A DNA stretch of 64,000 nt from an uncultured Sinobacteraceae bacterium (lineage in GTDB: Bacteria > Pseudomonadota > Gammaproteobacteria > Nevskiales > Nevskiaceae): NCBI GenBank assembly GCA_903822975.1, contig CAIJRD010000015.1, positions 1 to 64,000 on the forward strand, written 5' to 3'. A model generated the notes under the pieces. That model ran no database searches. It saw only the letters and a program-made list of their open reading frames with translations, and had not been told where the DNA came from. The translations under genes and the position numbers were made by a program. This document shows positions 164-55,343 of this stretch, piece by piece. Numbering within the stretch: the stretch's first letter is position 1; every line of letters starts with the position of its first letter.

Positions 164-1606
164 ATGAACAATCCAAGCACGCGGCGTTTGATGTCACGCA
201 CGCTCTCGCTGATTCTGCTCGGCAGTGCGGCGGCGCTTCTGGCCGGCTGCGCCGATGGACCTGGCAACGGCACCACCAGCTCGGGAACCACCAGCGGCGC
301 GAGCGGCGGTGTGACCAGCGGCGCCAGCGGCGGCGTGACCGGTGGTACGACCGGCAATACCACCGGCTCCTGCAGTTCGTCGACCAATTGCCCGGTCGTC
401 ACCGTACTGCTCGATGGCAAAACCGTCGATAACTTGGCCGACATCAGCGGACACGCGCTCGTCACTTGGACCTCGACCAACACCGACACCACGACCGGCA
501 CGACGCCTTGCACGCCGTCCGGCGGACTCGGCACACCAACCGATCCGTGGCAGGGTCCGTTGCCTTACCAGAGCACGCCGCCCGGCCTGACCGAACAGCC
601 CGTCGCGAACGGCGTCTATACCTTCGTGCTGACCTGTATCAACACGACCGGTGACGGCGCGTCGGCAGGCGCGGCAACGCTCACCGTCGGTCCGATTACG
701 GGCAACGAAAAATCGATCACCGTGACCGTGACCGCAGCTCCGACCTCGATCGCACTCGGCGACAGCTCGACGCTGACCTGGTCGGCGCTCAATACGGATG
801 GCAGCAGCGATTCGAGCATCACCTGCACGCATACGTCCTCGCCGGTGGATCCGGTTTGGAATGCCGCCGCCACGACGGCTTCCGGCATGGTCACGGTGAC
901 CCCAGCAACTGCAGTGGTCTACACCTATGTGCTGACTTGCACCAATGCCTCGGGCGGCAATGGCGCAGGCGCGGCAGCGGTGGCCGTCGGCGACAACAAC
1001 AATCCGCCACTGATCCAGTGCCCGGCCGGACAAACGTTCCAGAGCTTCCGCAACACCAGCAGCAGCGATAAGACCTACACCGCCAGCGCCGATACCGGCG
1101 GACTGTGCCTGCTGTGCTCGGTGACGCCGAACCCGCCGACGAATCTGGTCGCGCCGGTAACGGCCAACGATCTCGGCACGCCGGCGGTCATCTCGCTGCC
1201 GATCGGCCTGATCATCGATGGCGGCAACGTCACCGTGACCGACACCCTAGGCCCGATCACGCCAGCACCGGGCGGCAACGTCGTCGGGTTCGTGATCTCG
1301 GAGCCGGGTAATCCGATCCTGAGTCTCGAAGCGCTGCAGAACATTGCGATCTCGACGCTGGCCGCCGACGGCACCGTTGTCGAACGCGCCGGCAATCTGA
1401 CCGCGGTCAATCTCGATCTGCTGAGTCTGTTCACTGATCCCACTAAGCGCGCCGTGGTGATCAATGCCAAGTTGCCGTACAGCTCCGTCAAGCTGTCAGT
1501 CAGCGGGATTGCGCACCTGATCACCAACGTCAACGTCTATGAGGCGGGCGCATGCGTGGCGCCGGGAAGCACCGGCGGAACCTCGGGCGGTTCCAGCGGC
1601 GGCTGA
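164..1606 (+). CDS. Gly/Thr/Ser-rich lipoprotein with Ig-like repeats (copy 1)
   Basis: Predicted lipoprotein of 480 residues with no function I can name. The ATG at 164 gives a signal peptide ending in a lipobox (ALLAGC, Cys29); the ORF track's TTG at 137 and an ATG at 191 are alternatives. After the Cys comes a low-complexity SGTTSGASGG-type linker, then two beta-sandwich-like repeats of about 90-100 residues. These end in YTFVLTC or YTYVLTC and carry paired cysteines, as in bacterial Ig-like surface repeats. A C-terminal domain of about 190 residues contains CLLC, VGFVIS and a conserved NVYEAGAC end, followed by a Gly/Ser-rich tail. It is paralogous to 3352-4863 in architecture and C-terminal motifs. 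It follows an OmpA-family gene and is followed by an intrinsic terminator. A surface or periplasm-facing envelope role is inferred. Confidence 0.8.
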   Translation: MNNPSTRRLMSRTLSLILLGSAAALLAGCADGPGNGTTSSGTTSGASGGVTSGASGGVTGGTTGNTTGSCSSSTNCPVVTVLLDGKTVDNLADISGHALVTWTSTNTDTTTGTTPCTPSGGLGTPTDPWQGPLPYQSTPPGLTEQPVANGVYTFVLTCINTTGDGASAGAATLTVGPITGNEKSITVTVTAAPTSIALGDSSTLTWSALNTDGSSDSSITCTHTSSPVDPVWNAAATTASGMVTVTPATAVVYTYVLTCTNASGGNGAGAAAVAVGDNNNPPLIQCPAGQTFQSFRNTSSSDKTYTASADTGGLCLLCSVTPNPPTNLVAPVTANDLGTPAVISLPIGLIIDGGNVTVTDTLGPITPAPGGNVVGFVISEPGNPILSLEALQNIAISTLAADGTVVERAGNLTAVNLDLLSLFTDPTKRAVVINAKLPYSSVKLSVSGIAHLITNVNVYEAGACVAPGSTGGTSGGSSGG

Positions 1607-17908: not shown

Positions 17909-19087
17909 ATGAAACGTCTCGCTCTCGCTGCATTGCTGGGAGCCATCGCATTGCCCGCCGTCTCGGCGGCCAATGAAGTGGGTGATGTATATGGTGCGGT
18001 TTTGGGAAGTTACGAGTTCGCCGATAAGGACCGCGATGAAGTTCGTGGTGGCATCGGCGGAATGTCCATTCTGGGCCTTCCAGTCAACAAGAATCTCAGC
18101 TTCGAGCCAAATTTCTGGGCTGAGTCCGTTCGCCGTCGTAGCGATGGCGGCAATGACGCGCAGTACGGCGGTGGTCTCGATCTCAACATTCATCAATCGA
18201 ATGGCAAGACGGAAGGTTTCGTCGTCCTCGGTGGTGGTGCTGAACGTGATTACCTCGCCTACGCGCCGAAGGACAATGCGTTCAAGGGCTATGCCGACGC
18301 GGGCGCAGGTTTGATTTTCCGCCTGAGCCAGCATTTTGCGGTTCGTGCTGAAGGTCGTTACTACCTCAGCTTCGACCGCAGCGACTCGTATCCCGGCACG
18401 CACACGATTGGCGATGCAAAAGTCAATCTGGGTCTGCAGTATTCGCTCGGCGACGTGATTCCGACGCCGAATCCGCCGCCACCGCCGCCGCCGCCGGTTG
18501 CACCGCCGCCACCGCCACCGCCGCCGCCGCCGCCACCTCCGGCGCCGTGCACGGATAGCGATGGTGATGGTGTCTGCGACGCAGTCGACAAGTGCCCGGG
18601 CACTCCGCATGGCTTCAAGGTCGACGCGAGCGGTTGCATCATCGAGCAGACCGTCATCCTGCGTACCGTCAACTTCGAGTTCAACAAGGCAACGTTGACG
18701 TCGGATTCGAAGGTTGCGCTGGACGAAGTCGCTGCGGGTCTGATCGGTCAGCCGACGCTGCAGGTTGAAGTTTCGGGGCACACCGATTCGATCGGTTCGG
18801 CGCCGTACAACCTGAAGCTGTCGCAGCGTCGTGCTCAGTCGGTCGTGGCTTACTTGGTCAGCAAGGGTGTGCCGAAGGCGCGCTTGAGCGGCAAGGGCTA
18901 CGGCAAGACCAAGCCGATCGCGGACAACAAGACCGCAGAAGGTCGCGCCGAGAACCGTCGCGTCGAATTCAAGGTGATCGCTGGCGAAGCGATCGTCGAG
19001 AAGAAGACGCCGGGCGGCAAGACCGTGGTCAAGGTGCCGCAGCGCAAGCACCACCGCATGAAGACCGCGCCGACGACGACGCCGTAA
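17909..19087 (+). CDS. OmpA-family protein with long polyproline linker
   Basis: A 392-residue outer membrane protein. The ATG follows AAGGAGAAGC; the signal peptide ends in PAVSA. Residues of about 22-185 are a beta-barrel-like domain (GDVYGAVLGSYEFADKDRDE and later NLGLQYSLGD). Residues of about 188-212 are almost all proline, followed by a TSP3-type calcium motif (DSDGDGVCDAVDKCPG) and the OmpA peptidoglycan-binding domain (EVSGHTDSIG, AENRRVEFKV). A basic tail of about 35 residues follows (KVPQRKHHRMK). It shares architecture with the OmpA proteins at 2-130 and 2204-3325 but is clearly diverged and stands alone, with its own terminator. The polyproline run would need elongation factor P for efficient translation. 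Confidence 0.92.
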   Translation: MKRLALAALLGAIALPAVSAANEVGDVYGAVLGSYEFADKDRDEVRGGIGGMSILGLPVNKNLSFEPNFWAESVRRRSDGGNDAQYGGGLDLNIHQSNGKTEGFVVLGGGAERDYLAYAPKDNAFKGYADAGAGLIFRLSQHFAVRAEGRYYLSFDRSDSYPGTHTIGDAKVNLGLQYSLGDVIPTPNPPPPPPPPVAPPPPPPPPPPPPPAPCTDSDGDGVCDAVDKCPGTPHGFKVDASGCIIEQTVILRTVNFEFNKATLTSDSKVALDEVAAGLIGQPTLQVEVSGHTDSIGSAPYNLKLSQRRAQSVVAYLVSKGVPKARLSGKGYGKTKPIADNKTAEGRAENRRVEFKVIAGEAIVEKKTPGGKTVVKVPQRKHHRMKTAPTTTP

Positions 19088-48782: not shown

Positions 48783-50890
48783 GCGATCAACAGCTGTATC
48801 AACTCGCCGCAGGTGCCGGCATTTCGGTCGATTGGAATGACTATCGCGGGCAGCCGCAACGCGTGGGTATCGATAGTCTGCGTCGCATCCTCACCGCACT
48901 CGATCTGCCCTGTACTACCGATGCGCAGATCAGCGAGAGCCTCGCGCGCGTCGACGCCGAACGCGCCGATCCGCAACTGCCACCGTTGATCACCGCCATT
49001 GCCGGTGAGCCGACGCTGGCGCCGGACAGTATCGGCAGCCGGCTGCGTCTGCGATTGGAAGACGGCAGCAAGCGTGATCTCGTTACCGTGCCGGCCGATC
49101 ATGGTCATGCATTCATTCCGGCGATTGCCGAGACCGGCTATCACCAGCTGCATCTGCAGGACCGCGACATCACCATCGCCGTTGCCCCTCGGCGTGCGTT
49201 CGGCGTGGCCGATATTGCAAACGATTCCGGCAGCGCGGCGCCGCCACGACTCTGGGGCCTCGCTGCACAGCTGTATTCGCTGCGCCGCACGGGCGATGGC
49301 GGCATCGGCGACTTCAGCGCATTGGCAGATTTGAGCAGGCGCGCGGCGGCCAGCGGTGCCGCGGCGGTCGCGGTGAGTCCGGTGCATGCGCTGTTCGCCG
49401 CAGACCTGCAGCGCTTCGGCCCTTATGCGCCCTCGAGTCGATTGTTCGTCAACGCACTGCATGTCGATCCCGCTGCGGTATTCGGCGCAGCCGATGTGCA
49501 GGCAGCGATTGCGGCAACCGGCGTCGCCGCAGAGCTGGCCCGACTCGAAGGCTTGCATCTGATCGATTGGCCGGCTGCAGCGGCGGTGCGCTATCGCCTG
49601 CTGCGCCACCTGTTCGCTCAGCACAGGGACGAGCTGCTGGCCGCCACGCCGCAAACGCCACTCGCGCGCGAGTTCGCCGCGTTCTGCACGGACGGCGGTA
49701 CGGCGTTGGAGGATCACGCGCGCTTCGAAGCGCTGCACGCGGCACGCTTCGGCGCCGACACGACGCAATGGAACTGGCGCAGCTGGCCGAGTGCGCTGCG
49801 CGATCCGCGCAGTGCGGAAGTCGCCGCGTTCGCGAAGACGCATGCCGATGAAATCGCGTTTCATCGTTTCCTGCAGTGGCTCGCCGATCGTGGCCTCGCC
49901 GACGCGCAAGCCGCGGCGCGCACCGCCGGCATGCCGATCGGCCTGATCGGCGATCTCGCGGTCGGCACCGACGGCGGCGGCAGCCACAGCTGGAGCCATC
50001 AGGACGACATGCTGGTGGGGCTGTCGGTCGGCGCGCCGCCGGATCTGCTGAACGGCCTCGGGCAAAACTGGGGCCTCACCGCGTTCTCGCCGCGTGGCCT
50101 GCGTGCGCACGGCTACGCACCCTTCATCGAACTGTTGCGCGCAAATCTGCGTCACGCCGGTGGTCTGCGCATCGATCACGTGCTCGGTCTCGGCCGACTG
50201 TGGTTGGTGCCGGATGGTGCGACGGCCAACGAAGGCGCCTACCTGCAATATCCGCTGCGCGATCTGCTGCGTCTGATCGCGCTCGAATCCTGGCGTCACC
50301 GTGCGGTGATCGTCGGCGAGGATCTCGGCACGGTGCCGGACGGCTTCCGCGATCAGCTCGACGCGACCGGTCTGATGGGCATGCGCGTGCTGTGGTTCGA
50401 ACGCGCCTTCGAGCTGTTCGTCGAGCCGGCGCGCTGGTCGGCCACGGCGATGGCGACACCGACTACGCACGACCTGCCAACGGTCGCCGGTTGGTGGCTT
50501 GGCCGCGATATCGACTGGCGCGTGAAGCTCGGGCAACTGCCGCCGGAATCGAACGAAGCCGCGGAACGCGAGCTGCGCGAGCGCGAACGCCGCGCACTGT
50601 GGGACGCGTTCCGCTATGCCGAAGTCGCCGGCGGCGAACGCCCGTCGCCGGAGCAGAGCGCAGCGGTGATCGACGCCGCGCTGCGCTTCGTCGCGCGCAC
50701 ACCGGCGCCGTTGGCGATCGTGCCGATCGAAGACATTGTCGGTCTCGACGAGCAGCCGAATCTGCCGGGGACCACCGACGAACATCCGAACTGGCGTCGG
50801 CGCTTGCCCGACACGGCCGAAGTCCTGCTGGCGGCACCCGCGGCGGTTTCGCGGCTACGCAGCTTGCGCGAGGAGCGTGAAGTGAAATGA
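48779..50890 (+). CDS. malQ: 4-alpha-glucanotransferase
   Basis: Amylomaltase-type GH77 enzyme of 703 residues that disproportionates maltodextrins, exchanging short chains for longer ones plus glucose. An N-terminal region of about 140 residues precedes the GH77 domain, as in E. coli-type MalQ. GH77 motifs: PRLWGLAAQLYSLRRTGDGG, IGLIGDLAVGTDGGGSHSW, GAPPDLLNGLGQNWGLTAFS, GGLRIDHVLGLGRLW with the nucleophile Asp, VIVGEDLGTVPDG with the acid/base Glu, and TTHDLPTVAGWW. The start is TTG at 48779, overlapping the treZ stop by four bases. Its stop overlaps the treY ATG (ATGA). Confidence 0.94.
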   Translation: MSDQQLYQLAAGAGISVDWNDYRGQPQRVGIDSLRRILTALDLPCTTDAQISESLARVDAERADPQLPPLITAIAGEPTLAPDSIGSRLRLRLEDGSKRDLVTVPADHGHAFIPAIAETGYHQLHLQDRDITIAVAPRRAFGVADIANDSGSAAPPRLWGLAAQLYSLRRTGDGGIGDFSALADLSRRAAASGAAAVAVSPVHALFAADLQRFGPYAPSSRLFVNALHVDPAAVFGAADVQAAIAATGVAAELARLEGLHLIDWPAAAAVRYRLLRHLFAQHRDELLAATPQTPLAREFAAFCTDGGTALEDHARFEALHAARFGADTTQWNWRSWPSALRDPRSAEVAAFAKTHADEIAFHRFLQWLADRGLADAQAAARTAGMPIGLIGDLAVGTDGGGSHSWSHQDDMLVGLSVGAPPDLLNGLGQNWGLTAFSPRGLRAHGYAPFIELLRANLRHAGGLRIDHVLGLGRLWLVPDGATANEGAYLQYPLRDLLRLIALESWRHRAVIVGEDLGTVPDGFRDQLDATGLMGMRVLWFERAFELFVEPARWSATAMATPTTHDLPTVAGWWLGRDIDWRVKLGQLPPESNEAAERELRERERRALWDAFRYAEVAGGERPSPEQSAAVIDAALRFVARTPAPLAIVPIEDIVGLDEQPNLPGTTDEHPNWRRRLPDTAEVLLAAPAAVSRLRSLREEREVK

Positions 50891-53709
50891 ATGTCGTGAT
50901 CCCGGCCAGGAAGGCCGTGCCGAGCACCACCGCCCGGCTGCAATTGCACAAGGACTTCACGCTGCGCGACGCTGCCGACCAGGTCGGTTACTACGCCAGT
51001 CTCGGCATCAGCGATCTGTACGTCTCGCCGATTCTCACCGCGCGCGCAGGCTCGATGCACGGCTACGACGTGGTCGATCACAGCGCGGTCAATCCCGAGC
51101 TCGGCGGCGAAGCCGCCTTGCGCGAGTTGGTGGCGAAGCTGCGCGCGCACGACATGGGCTTGATCGTCGACATCGTGCCGAACCACATGGCGGTCGGCCG
51201 CGCCGACAACGCCTGGTGGCTCGACGTGCTCGAATGGGGCCGCGACAGTCCCTATGCCGGCTTCTTCGATATCGACTGGGATGTGCCGGACCCGCAGCTG
51301 CACCATCGCGTGCTGGCACCGTTTCTCGGCAAGCCTTACGGCGAGGCACTGGCCGAAGGCGAGATCAAGCTCGAGTTCGATGCCGCCGCCGGAAAGTTTT
51401 CCGCGATGTATTACGAGCATCGCTTCCCGATTGCGCCGACCGACTATGGCCCGCTGCTGCGCGCCAGCGGCGAAGCACTCGGCGAATTCGCCAGACTTTT
51501 TCGCGATGCCACCTCGCATCGCAAAGGCCGCGCGCAGCGGCGCCATGCCTTCGCCGATGCCTGCGCGGCACTGGCGCTTGCCGCGGCCGAACGCAGTGAA
51601 GTCGCTGCGGCGATCGCGCGCCTGCTGCAGCAGATGTCGCCGGCCGCCGAAGACAGCCGTGCGCATCTGCACAGCTTGCTGGAACGGCAGCATTACCGGC
51701 TGGCGTGGTGGCGTACCGCGCCCGACGAGATCAACTGGCGCCGCTTCTTCGACGTGATCGATCTGGCCGGTCTGCGCATCCAGGAGAGCGCGGTGTTCGA
51801 GGCGGTTCACGCCACCACGTTCCGGCTCTATGTCGAAGGACTGATCGATGGCCTGCGTGTCGATCATGTCGATGGCCTCGCCGATCCGCGCGCGTATTGC
51901 CGCAAGCTGCGTGCGCGCCTGCAAACGCTGGCGCGTCAGCGTCCCGACCATCTTGCCAGCGGCACGACCTATTTCGTTGTCGAAAAAATTCTTGCACCCG
52001 GTGAACTGCTGGCGCGCGACTGGCGCACCGACGGCACCTCCGGCTATGTCTTCATGAACGAAGTCGGCGCGTTGCTGCACGACCCGCAGGGCGAACCGGC
52101 ACTGACCAAGCTGTGGGCGGAGCGCTCCGGCAGCAGCGGTGATTTCGAAGACGAAGAACGCCGCGCGCGACGCCGAATTCCGCAAGAGCTGCTCGCTGCC
52201 GATTTCAATGCCTGCGCGCATGCATTGCACGCGATCGCGCGCAGCGACCCGCAAACGCGCGACTGGACCGCCGGTGCGATACGTCGTGTGCTGGCGGAAA
52301 TGCTGCTGTACTTTCCGGTGTATCGCACCTACGCCGATATCCGCGGACGCAGCGCCGCCGATGCCGCGATCATGGCGCAGGTGGTCGCCGATGCGCAGCG
52401 CAGCTGTCGCGCCGGCGAACGCACGCTGGTGAGTCTGGTCGATCGCTGGCTCGGTGGAGAAGCACCGCAGGATGTTGCCGGTGCGGCCGCGATACGCCTG
52501 CGCCTGCGCGCGCTTGCGCGCTTCCAGCAGCTCACTTCGCCGGTCGCGGCGAAGTCGGTCGAAGACACCGCGTTCTATCGTCACGGGCGCCTGCTGTCGC
52601 GCAACGAAGTCGGTGCCAATCCAGGGCAGTTCTCGCTTGCGGTGGACGATTTTCATACCGTGTGCGGCGCGCGCCTGAAGCGCTATCCGCTGGCGATGCT
52701 GGCCACCGCCACGCACGATCACAAGCGCGGCGAAGACCTGCGCGCGCGTCTCGCCGTGCTCAGCGAAATTCCCGAGGAATGGGCAGCCGCAGCGCGTGGC
52801 TGGAGCGATCGCAATGCCGCGCTCAAGCCGACGCACGACGGCATAAGCGGTCCGGATGCGACCGACGAATACATCCTCTACCAGATGCTGGTCGGCGCCT
52901 GGCCGCTGACGCTCGAAGTCGACGATCGCCCCGGGCTGACCTCGCTATGCGAACGCCTCGCCGCGTGGCAGGAAAAAGCCGTGCGCGAAGCCAAGCGCCA
53001 ATCCGGCTGGATCGAACCGAACCTGCCCTACGAACAGGCCTGCAAGGAATTCCTGCAGGCGCTGCTCGATCCGGCGCGTTCGTCGAACTTCTTGCTTGAA
53101 CTGAAAGCCTTTGTCGAGCGCATCGCAGTGGCCGGTGCGATCAACAGTTTCACGCAGACGCTGCTGCGTCTGACCACGCCGGGCGTGCCGGATCTGTACC
53201 AAGGCACCGAGTTCTGGGATTTCAGCCTGGTCGATCCGGACAATCGCAGGCCGGTGGATTTTGCCGCGCGCGTGGCCGCACTCGCCGAAGACGCGGAGCT
53301 TGCGCAGCTGCTCGCGCAGTGGCGCGATGGTCGCATCAAGCAGCGGCTGATTGCGCGCACGCTCGCACTGCGTCGCGCCACCGTCGATGTGTTCGCGCAG
53401 GGCGCGTATCTGCCGCTGAAAGTGCAGGGCAGCGCGGCGCGCCATGTGATTGCGTTCGTACGCGAGAACGCCAACGGCAGCGTGCTGGTCGCTACGAGTT
53501 TGTATCCAGCCAAACTGCTCGGGCGAGCCTCGCACCCGATGATCGATCCCGCGCAGTGGGGCGATACCGCGCTCGTCATGCCCGCACATCTGCGTCAGCG
53601 CCAGTGGCGTGATGTGCTCGACGAGCGCGCACTGCCAGCGCTCGGTGCGCTGCCGCGTGCCGCGCACCTGTTCGCCGGTCTGCCGATGACGGTGCTGGTC
53701 GCGCGCTAG
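50887..53709 (+). CDS. treY: Maltooligosyl trehalose synthase
   Basis: A GH13 enzyme of 940 residues that turns the reducing end of maltodextrins into an alpha,alpha-1,1 linkage, the substrate of TreZ. The N-terminal TARLQLHKDFTLRDAADQVG and LYVSPILTARAGSMHGYDVV are family signatures. DIVPNHMAV, nucleophile Asp326 in LIDGLRVDHVDGLADP, YFVVEKILAPGE with the acid/base, and TATHDHKRGEDLRAR follow; the C-terminal LTTPGVPDLYQGTEFWDFSLVDPDNRRPVDF is highly typical. The ATG overlaps the malQ stop. Last gene of the array; no clear terminator was seen in the 200 bases downstream. Confidence 0.96.
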   Translation: MNVVIPARKAVPSTTARLQLHKDFTLRDAADQVGYYASLGISDLYVSPILTARAGSMHGYDVVDHSAVNPELGGEAALRELVAKLRAHDMGLIVDIVPNHMAVGRADNAWWLDVLEWGRDSPYAGFFDIDWDVPDPQLHHRVLAPFLGKPYGEALAEGEIKLEFDAAAGKFSAMYYEHRFPIAPTDYGPLLRASGEALGEFARLFRDATSHRKGRAQRRHAFADACAALALAAAERSEVAAAIARLLQQMSPAAEDSRAHLHSLLERQHYRLAWWRTAPDEINWRRFFDVIDLAGLRIQESAVFEAVHATTFRLYVEGLIDGLRVDHVDGLADPRAYCRKLRARLQTLARQRPDHLASGTTYFVVEKILAPGELLARDWRTDGTSGYVFMNEVGALLHDPQGEPALTKLWAERSGSSGDFEDEERRARRRIPQELLAADFNACAHALHAIARSDPQTRDWTAGAIRRVLAEMLLYFPVYRTYADIRGRSAADAAIMAQVVADAQRSCRAGERTLVSLVDRWLGGEAPQDVAGAAAIRLRLRALARFQQLTSPVAAKSVEDTAFYRHGRLLSRNEVGANPGQFSLAVDDFHTVCGARLKRYPLAMLATATHDHKRGEDLRARLAVLSEIPEEWAAAARGWSDRNAALKPTHDGISGPDATDEYILYQMLVGAWPLTLEVDDRPGLTSLCERLAAWQEKAVREAKRQSGWIEPNLPYEQACKEFLQALLDPARSSNFLLELKAFVERIAVAGAINSFTQTLLRLTTPGVPDLYQGTEFWDFSLVDPDNRRPVDFAARVAALAEDAELAQLLAQWRDGRIKQRLIARTLALRRATVDVFAQGAYLPLKVQGSAARHVIAFVRENANGSVLVATSLYPAKLLGRASHPMIDPAQWGDTALVMPAHLRQRQWRDVLDERALPALGALPRAAHLFAGLPMTVLVAR

Positions 53710-53909: not shown

Positions 53910-55343
53910 ATGTGGCCGGATCATCGGATTCAAAAACTGCTCGGCATCGAACTGCCGATCATCCAGGCGCCGATGGCGGGTGCGCAGCGCGCCGAGCTGG
54001 CGATTGCCGTGGCCAACGCCGGCGGTCTCGGTTCCTTGCCCTGCGCGATGTTGAGTCCGGAGCAACTGCGTGAACAGGTCGCGCAATTTCGCAGTGCAGC
54101 GCCCGGTCGATCGCTCAATCTGAATTTTTTCTGCCACCGCACGCCGCTGCCCGATCCTGCGCGCGAAGCGCAGTGGAAGCAGCGGCTCGCAGCGTATTAC
54201 CGCGAATTCGGTGTCGACCCGGATGCGCCGGTCACGTCGGCGAGTCGTGCGCCGTTCGACAACCGCTTCTGCGATCTGGTCGAGCAACTGCGTCCCGAAG
54301 TCCTCAGCTTCCATTTCGGCTTGCCGGACGCGCCCCTGCTCGACCGCGTGCGTGCCTGCGGCGCGAAGATATTGTCGTCCGCCACTACGGTTGCCGAAGC
54401 ACGATGGCTGGCCGCGCGAGGATGCGACGCGGTGATCGCGCAAGGTGCCGAAGCCGGTGGCCATCGCGGCATGTTCCTGACCGACGACATTGCCACACAG
54501 ATCGGCACCTTCGCGCTGTTGCCGCAGATCGTCGATGCCGTGCGCGTGCCGGTGATCGCATCCGGCGGCATTGGCGATGCGCGTGGCATCGTTGCCGCGT
54601 TCGCGCTGGGTGCCTCGGCCGTGCAGCTTGGTACCGCGTATCTGCTGTGCCCCGAGACGCGTCTGGCGCCGCTGTATCGCGCCGCACTGCTGCGCGCGAT
54701 TGCGGCGGATGTCGAAGCCGAGGCCGAGCTCAAGGTCGATCTCAATGTCGATTTCAAGGCTGAGTCCAAGGTCAAGGCCAACGCCAACGCCAACGCCAAC
54801 GCTGAGACCAACGCCGACACCAACAGCGAATCGCGAACGGCGTCGTTCAACGCGACGAACGAATCCACGCAGCCTGCGTCCTCCCATCGCTCGGTCGTTG
54901 CGGCGGTCGCCGCACCCGGCGTCGCGCCCGGCGTCGCGCCCGTCGATGCACCGATCGACGGCACCATCGATCCCTTGCGTGCTGCATCATTTATCAATGT
55001 GTCGCCAGAGCAGTCGATCGAAGTATCGGACCAAATGTCGAGCAACCCATCGGCGGCTGATGCCACCGCACTGACCAATCTGTTCAGCGGCCGGCCGGCG
55101 CGCGGACTGATCAACCGCCTGATGCGCGAGCAAGGTCCGATGAATCCTGCGGTTCCGGCGTTTCCGCAGGCGGCTGCTGCACTCGCCGGGCTGCGCGCAA
55201 AAGCCGAAGCGGCCGGCGACGACGGCTTCATGTCGCTGTGGGCGGGCCAGGCGGTCGCGATGGCGCGCAGCGTGTCCGCAGCCGAACTCACGCGCCAGCT
55301 TGCCACCGACGCGCTCGCGCACCTCGGGCGTTTCGTTCGGTGA
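53910..55343 (+). CDS. Nitronate monooxygenase-like FMN protein with low-complexity insertion
   Basis: A flavoprotein of the nitronate monooxygenase (2-nitropropane dioxygenase) family, 477 residues. The N-terminal half is standard: LGIELPIIQAPMAG, NFFCHR, EVLSFHFGLPD, IAQGAEAGGHRGMF and VPVIASGGIGDARG-type FMN phosphate motifs. At about residue 268 the fold is interrupted by some 115 residues of low complexity (KANANANANAETNADTN, GVAPGVAPVDAP). The family then resumes at DATALTNLFSGRPARGLINR. Without the insertion the protein would be about 360 residues, the normal length. The frame is intact throughout. The ATG at 53910 follows AAGGAAA. Whether the insertion is tolerated or removes activity is unknown. 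Confidence 0.88.
   Translation: MWPDHRIQKLLGIELPIIQAPMAGAQRAELAIAVANAGGLGSLPCAMLSPEQLREQVAQFRSAAPGRSLNLNFFCHRTPLPDPAREAQWKQRLAAYYREFGVDPDAPVTSASRAPFDNRFCDLVEQLRPEVLSFHFGLPDAPLLDRVRACGAKILSSATTVAEARWLAARGCDAVIAQGAEAGGHRGMFLTDDIATQIGTFALLPQIVDAVRVPVIASGGIGDARGIVAAFALGASAVQLGTAYLLCPETRLAPLYRAALLRAIAADVEAEAELKVDLNVDFKAESKVKANANANANAETNADTNSESRTASFNATNESTQPASSHRSVVAAVAAPGVAPGVAPVDAPIDGTIDPLRAASFINVSPEQSIEVSDQMSSNPSAADATALTNLFSGRPARGLINRLMREQGPMNPAVPAFPQAAAALAGLRAKAEAAGDDGFMSLWAGQAVAMARSVSAAELTRQLATDALAHLGRFVR
54778..54801 (+). repeat. GCCAAC hexamer tandem repeat inside the NMO gene
   Basis: Four perfect copies of GCCAAC code for Ala-Asn dipeptides within the low-complexity insertion. Nearby, GGCGTCGCGCCC is duplicated at about 54919-54942. 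Both look like products of replication slippage. Confidence 0.9.

Follow-up and report, generated by a model that had tools for sequence, protein, structure and literature searches.

A nitronate monooxygenase (NMO) of an uncultured Sinobacteraceae bacterium carries an in-frame, low-complexity insert between two conserved parts of its catalytic domain and, judged by sequence comparison, this insert is specific to the lineage of one species. We consider it likely that a permissive surface loop grew here by slippage without loss of frame, and that the added segment is tolerated rather than functional. The gene lies in the window, i.e. the whole stretch of 64,000 nucleotides that was analysed, and its features are collected in Table 1. 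A first-pass annotation, made from the letters alone, had placed a low-complexity insertion at 54710-55058; the insertion is real, with an uninterrupted open reading frame, NMO homology on both sides and a net gain of ~118 residues, and these coordinates are right to within a few bases.

Table 1. Features of the NMO gene and of a second gene with an in-frame insert
Feature	Coordinates	Strand	Remarks
Nitronate monooxygenase (2-nitropropane dioxygenase family, PF03060), 477 aa	53910..55343	+	closest solved structure SoNMO 5LSM
N-terminal enzyme part, residues 1-261	53910..54692	+	FMN TIM barrel including GGHRG segment (His185)
Inserted segment, net ~117-118 codons	54702..55061	+	in no homologue measured
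Left copy of imperfect direct repeat bounding the insert, GCGGCGGATG	54702..54711	+	9/10 match
Diverged hexanucleotide array, ~20 units	54712..54831	+	dipeptide repeat
GCCAAC x4, perfect core of the hexamer array, ANANANAN	54777..54800	+	
12-bp tandem duplication, CGCGCCCGGCGT	54911..54942	+	2.7 copies, APGVAPGVAPV
Right copy of direct repeat, GCGGCTGATG	55053..55062	+	exactly 351 bp (117 codons) downstream of left copy
C-terminal enzyme part, residues 386-477	55065..55343	+	from TALTNLFSGRPARG onward
Acyl-CoA synthetase (PF00501) with second in-frame insert	L156:10765-12711 (G000:C2:250765-252711)	+	

Identity and fold of the host enzyme

The NMO frame contains neither a stop nor a frame change. 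Its product matches the PF03060 profile with 242.2 bits (curated cut-off 28), and an identity as FabK enoyl-ACP reductase (TIGR03151) was rejected, the score of 153 bits lying below the equivalog cut-off of 453.1. Residues 6-261 and 381-464 align with 5LSM, the structure of SO_0471 from Shewanella oneidensis (E 5e-115), and no match is found between them. In an AlphaFold2 model based on 50 homologues, the core has a pLDDT mostly above 85 and the TIM-barrel fold is kept despite the insert; 5LSM is also the top PDB match of this predicted fold in Foldseek. The two enzymes resemble each other over the whole fold (TM 0.95, target-normalised; 41% identity over the aligned structure) and share the GGHRG and TALTNLFSGRPARG segments, but 5LSM has no insertion at residue 259-260, where the window enzyme has its additional residues. 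His185 is invariant across 51 aligned sequences, and the histidine of the GGHRG segment is the catalytic base in NMOs.

On the evidence of sequence and predicted model, the frame encodes an ordinary class I-type NMO, which is presumably active as such. The preservation of the frame and of both enzyme halves, described in the first-pass annotation, holds as far as no frameshift is seen and the predicted core is intact. The gene is preceded by treY (malto-oligosyltrehalose synthase, 50887-53709) and followed by a HerA-like ATPase gene (from ~55440).

Absence of the insert from homologues

The linker between 'AALL' (258-261) and 'TALT' (386-389) counts 124 residues in the window enzyme and 6 in its nearest ortholog (L005 in genome G006). 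The halves of that ortholog are 79% and 67% identical to those of the window enzyme and are joined as ...HRAALL-QAQDDQ-TALTNLFSGRPARG...; at its locus a HerA-like gene likewise follows NMO, and treY lies upstream, with ~0.9 kb of other sequence between. The comparison with NMO homologues that the first-pass annotation had proposed was extended to 102 sequences from whole genomes and the GTDB contig collection and to 11 more of the family, and a comparable insert was found in none of these ~113 homologues with both halves measured. Nor was one present in a class-wide draw of 369 genomes, wherever both halves were listed. For the minus-strand loci and the partial locus L120 of the first set, the absence is shown by match coordinates.

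The largest other expansion at this site amounts to ~12 residues (L125 in genome G062) and another locus, L091, has four additional residues. These small additions indicate that the loop tolerates changes in length and is therefore permissive. The insertion in L125 (AAAPSQLKSQAPAGPRSD, ~738-787, minus strand) is that gene's own, at the same NMO loop and in another genus. A literature search on NMO loops found nothing relevant.

Repeat composition and origin of the insert

The hexamer array encodes dipeptide units in which a small or hydrophobic residue alternates with a polar or charged one, read as VE AE AE LK VD LN VD FK AE SK VK AN AN AN AN AE TN AD TN SE. Its self-identity is 0.64 at period 6 and 0.71 at period 12; the period-6 value was reached in 0 of 20,000 codon shuffles and, in 464 kb of this genome, is attained elsewhere at three places only. 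A further 12-bp array is present at 54721-54759. Altogether, tandem repeats cover 123 of the 351 bp, where ~6 bp would be expected from the window mean. The slippage signatures named in the first-pass annotation, four GCCAAC units and a duplicated 12-mer, are thus present and far exceed chance, but its picture of a slippage-marked insert fits only a part of the segment. The clear hexamer array makes up only about one third, and the rest consists of the 12-bp duplication and of non-repetitive sequence. No obvious repeats are seen in 54832-54910 and 54943-55050, which add up to approximately half of the insert.

Where the insert is repetitive, at the least, its origin is most simply explained by repeat growth. 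According to this scheme, a 6-bp unit would have grown to ~20 copies by replication slippage and a 12-bp unit would have been duplicated in the same loop, growth being at least partly due to slippage. The perfect GCCAAC core would be the youngest part of the array, and the diverged units would be older. The site of growth would be the exposed loop between the last barrel-region helix and the C-terminal part, in the lineage of this species, and because 6- and 12-bp units always keep the frame, such expansions would have escaped removal by selection.

Alternatively, a discrete piece of DNA, such as a mobile-element remnant or a gene fragment, may have entered in frame, generated the 10-bp direct repeat and gained its tandem repeats later. 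Rickettsia palindromic elements are comparable in-frame insertion elements. The junctions would agree with such an event: they carry the 9/10 direct repeat, and comparable matches arise by chance in 0.7-4.7% of controls, varying with the width of the search, so that the repeat is no more than suggestive. Few repeats are present in the second half of the insert, and foreign DNA could be the source of the non-repetitive sequence. Yet the insert has no second copy elsewhere in its own genome, where only its own locus matches, and no match in phages; in plasmids, only short stretches match, most of them within the hexamer array; it belongs to no Pfam or Rfam family and lacks a strong terminal inverted repeat. 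Entry as a discrete piece is accordingly considered quite improbable. A dispersed, RPE-like in-frame element was rejected on the single copy, the lack of phage matches and the short, repeat-array nature of the plasmid matches, and an RNA element within the insert was rejected for want of an Rfam match.

GCCAAC-like matches in relatives were attributed to convergent simple arrays. On a plasmid of genome G019, a similar hexamer is read in another frame and gives the TPTPTP linkers of a secreted protein. At L037 (G019:C2:58268-61314), a secreted trypsin-like protein has a (TP)n linker, ~220 residues long, that is encoded by a long GTCGGC-type hexamer array.

Tandem repeats and a second insert in the same genome

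Tandem repeats were surveyed in 1.66 Mb of this genome (G000), sampled in stretches (L139-L158, L199-L258 and the window). Their coverage is 2.32% in the first 400 kb and 1.85% over all 1.66 Mb, compared with 0.41%, 0.48%, 1.03%, 1.17% and 1.49% in five relatives, for which the samples were smaller. Their periods include multiples of three (12, 24, 6 and 18) as well as others (8, 13, 14, 16 and 35). MutS and MutL are full length in this genome; loss of these repair genes was therefore rejected as the cause of the repeats, and no simple or gross mismatch-repair defect explains them.

Beyond NMO, the sampled 1.66 Mb contain one further clear case of an enzyme with such an insert. An acyl-CoA synthetase has a species-specific insert in its AMP-binding domain, where near-perfect 12-bp GCGATCGACACG units encode an (IDTA)n segment of ~36 residues that is missing from the homologues of 19 relatives, including that of G006 (75-77% identity). 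The purer repeat suggests that this insert is younger than the one in NMO. It may be asked whether this is a lineage with unusually active repeat growth, which has repeatedly added long, disordered, frame-neutral loops to the catalytic domains of housekeeping-type enzymes (so far NMO and acyl-CoA synthetase), as a bacterial counterpart of the inserts of Plasmodium and possibly with selected tuning; we regard this broader proposal as speculative and rather doubtful.

Other arrays were encountered in the survey. At L251:2947-4189, near-identical units of 333 bp encode a series of acyl-carrier domains, marked by GIDSIKR motifs, within an open frame of 2251 residues, which looks like a polyunsaturated fatty acid or polyketide synthase. 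Long 8-bp tandem arrays of up to 32 copies at L146:328-504 and L153:8946-9220 are frame-breaking and are possibly intergenic VNTRs. In the window, a CCG-type array (18473-18547) is translated as a poly-proline linker (PPPPPPPPVAPPPP...). The frame around it has 400 residues and, on the analogy of L150:17432-18763, probably encodes an OmpA-like protein.

Coding signal, predicted structure and possible function

Within the insert, the NMO frame has a coding score of +0.25 bits per codon, and the other sense frames score -0.83 and -0.49. A gene in another frame was rejected, as lower scores were obtained for the remaining sense frames and for those on the antisense strand; long antisense open reading frames occur throughout this G+C-rich region. 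Synonymous codon bias is 0.005 in the insert, 0.307 in the N-terminal half and 0.172 in the C-terminal half. The nil value in the insert fits DNA that was recently made coding by repeat growth better than it would fit a domain of long standing.

A sequencing or assembly artefact, in the form of a misassembled or collapsed repeat, deserves mention for a low-complexity sequence known from a single assembly. We hold it to be extremely improbable: the frame is held over 351 bp, both junctions are clean, the composition is coding-like in one frame, and the acyl-CoA synthetase provides an independent second case. Furthermore, the insert is unique in the genome, so that there is no second copy with which it could have been cross-joined.

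In the AlphaFold2 model, the insert extends a helix that starts at residue 254, with pLDDT values falling from 83 to 64, 54 and 50, and is then unstructured up to residue 381 (pLDDT 32-39). This confidence is lowered in part because the insert itself has no aligned relatives. The loop is thus predicted to be solvent-exposed, to start as a weak extension of the helix, to end in a disordered tail and to leave the fold intact. An inserted folded domain was rejected, as no Pfam family matches the insert at E 10 and pLDDT is 32-64 over most of its length; likewise, the segment did not prove to be a folded conserved domain in homologues, the outcome that the first-pass annotation had named as contrary to its claim.

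The disordered loop might instead have been selected for a function; it could, for instance, tether a binding partner or serve in oligomerisation or localisation. This would be in keeping with a frame open across 117 codons, with an alternating charged and hydrophobic dipeptide segment that is predicted to extend a helix, and with a coding-like composition confined to the NMO frame. Against such a role, the loop occurs in no homologue, its synonymous codon choice is without adaptation, and the acyl-CoA synthetase, unrelated to NMO but encoded in the same genome, has a similar insert, which indicates a mutational rather than an enzyme-specific cause. A selected function is therefore considered unlikely. 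Of the two possibilities in the first-pass annotation, a tolerated or a functional disordered loop, disorder is predicted and tolerance fits better with the nil synonymous bias and the second enzyme insert. We infer that slippage was the process and that the loop is neutral; most likely it is near-neutral padding.

Significance and known parallels

The NMO insert constitutes a natural experiment in the capacity of a compact TIM-barrel flavoenzyme to accommodate unstructured sequence. The two inserts and the raised repeat density jointly make this genome suited to studying tandem repeats as a source of new bacterial protein sequence. In addition, the case cautions that an annotated enzyme of aberrant length may be genuine.

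Low-complexity inserts derived from slippage are of a known kind, and it is the size of this one that is unusually large for a bacterial enzyme. In prokaryotic low-complexity regions, Ala-rich segments are thought to be slippage-derived, Ala is most often encoded by GCC and Asn is heavily under-represented among the regions surveyed (PMC6821194). The NMO insert is similarly Ala-rich and of slippage type but, in contrast to these regions, it is also Asn-rich and interrupts a catalytic domain, with conserved sequence on both sides. In mutL of Salmonella, 6-bp tandem repeats vary in copy number by slipped-strand mispairing (PMC2955026). Both genes thus have small tandem repeats inside the sequence of an enzyme, but mutL has few copies and a switch phenotype, whereas the copies in NMO are diverged, number ~20 and are linked to no known phenotype. 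Finally, the asparaginyl-tRNA synthetase (AsnRS) of P. falciparum has a low-complexity insert of 76 residues (PMC10831071). As in Plasmodium enzymes, the NMO insert is a lineage-specific, low-complexity addition to a conserved enzyme; Plasmodium is eukaryotic and AT-rich, whereas the host of this insert is a bacterium with 63% G+C.
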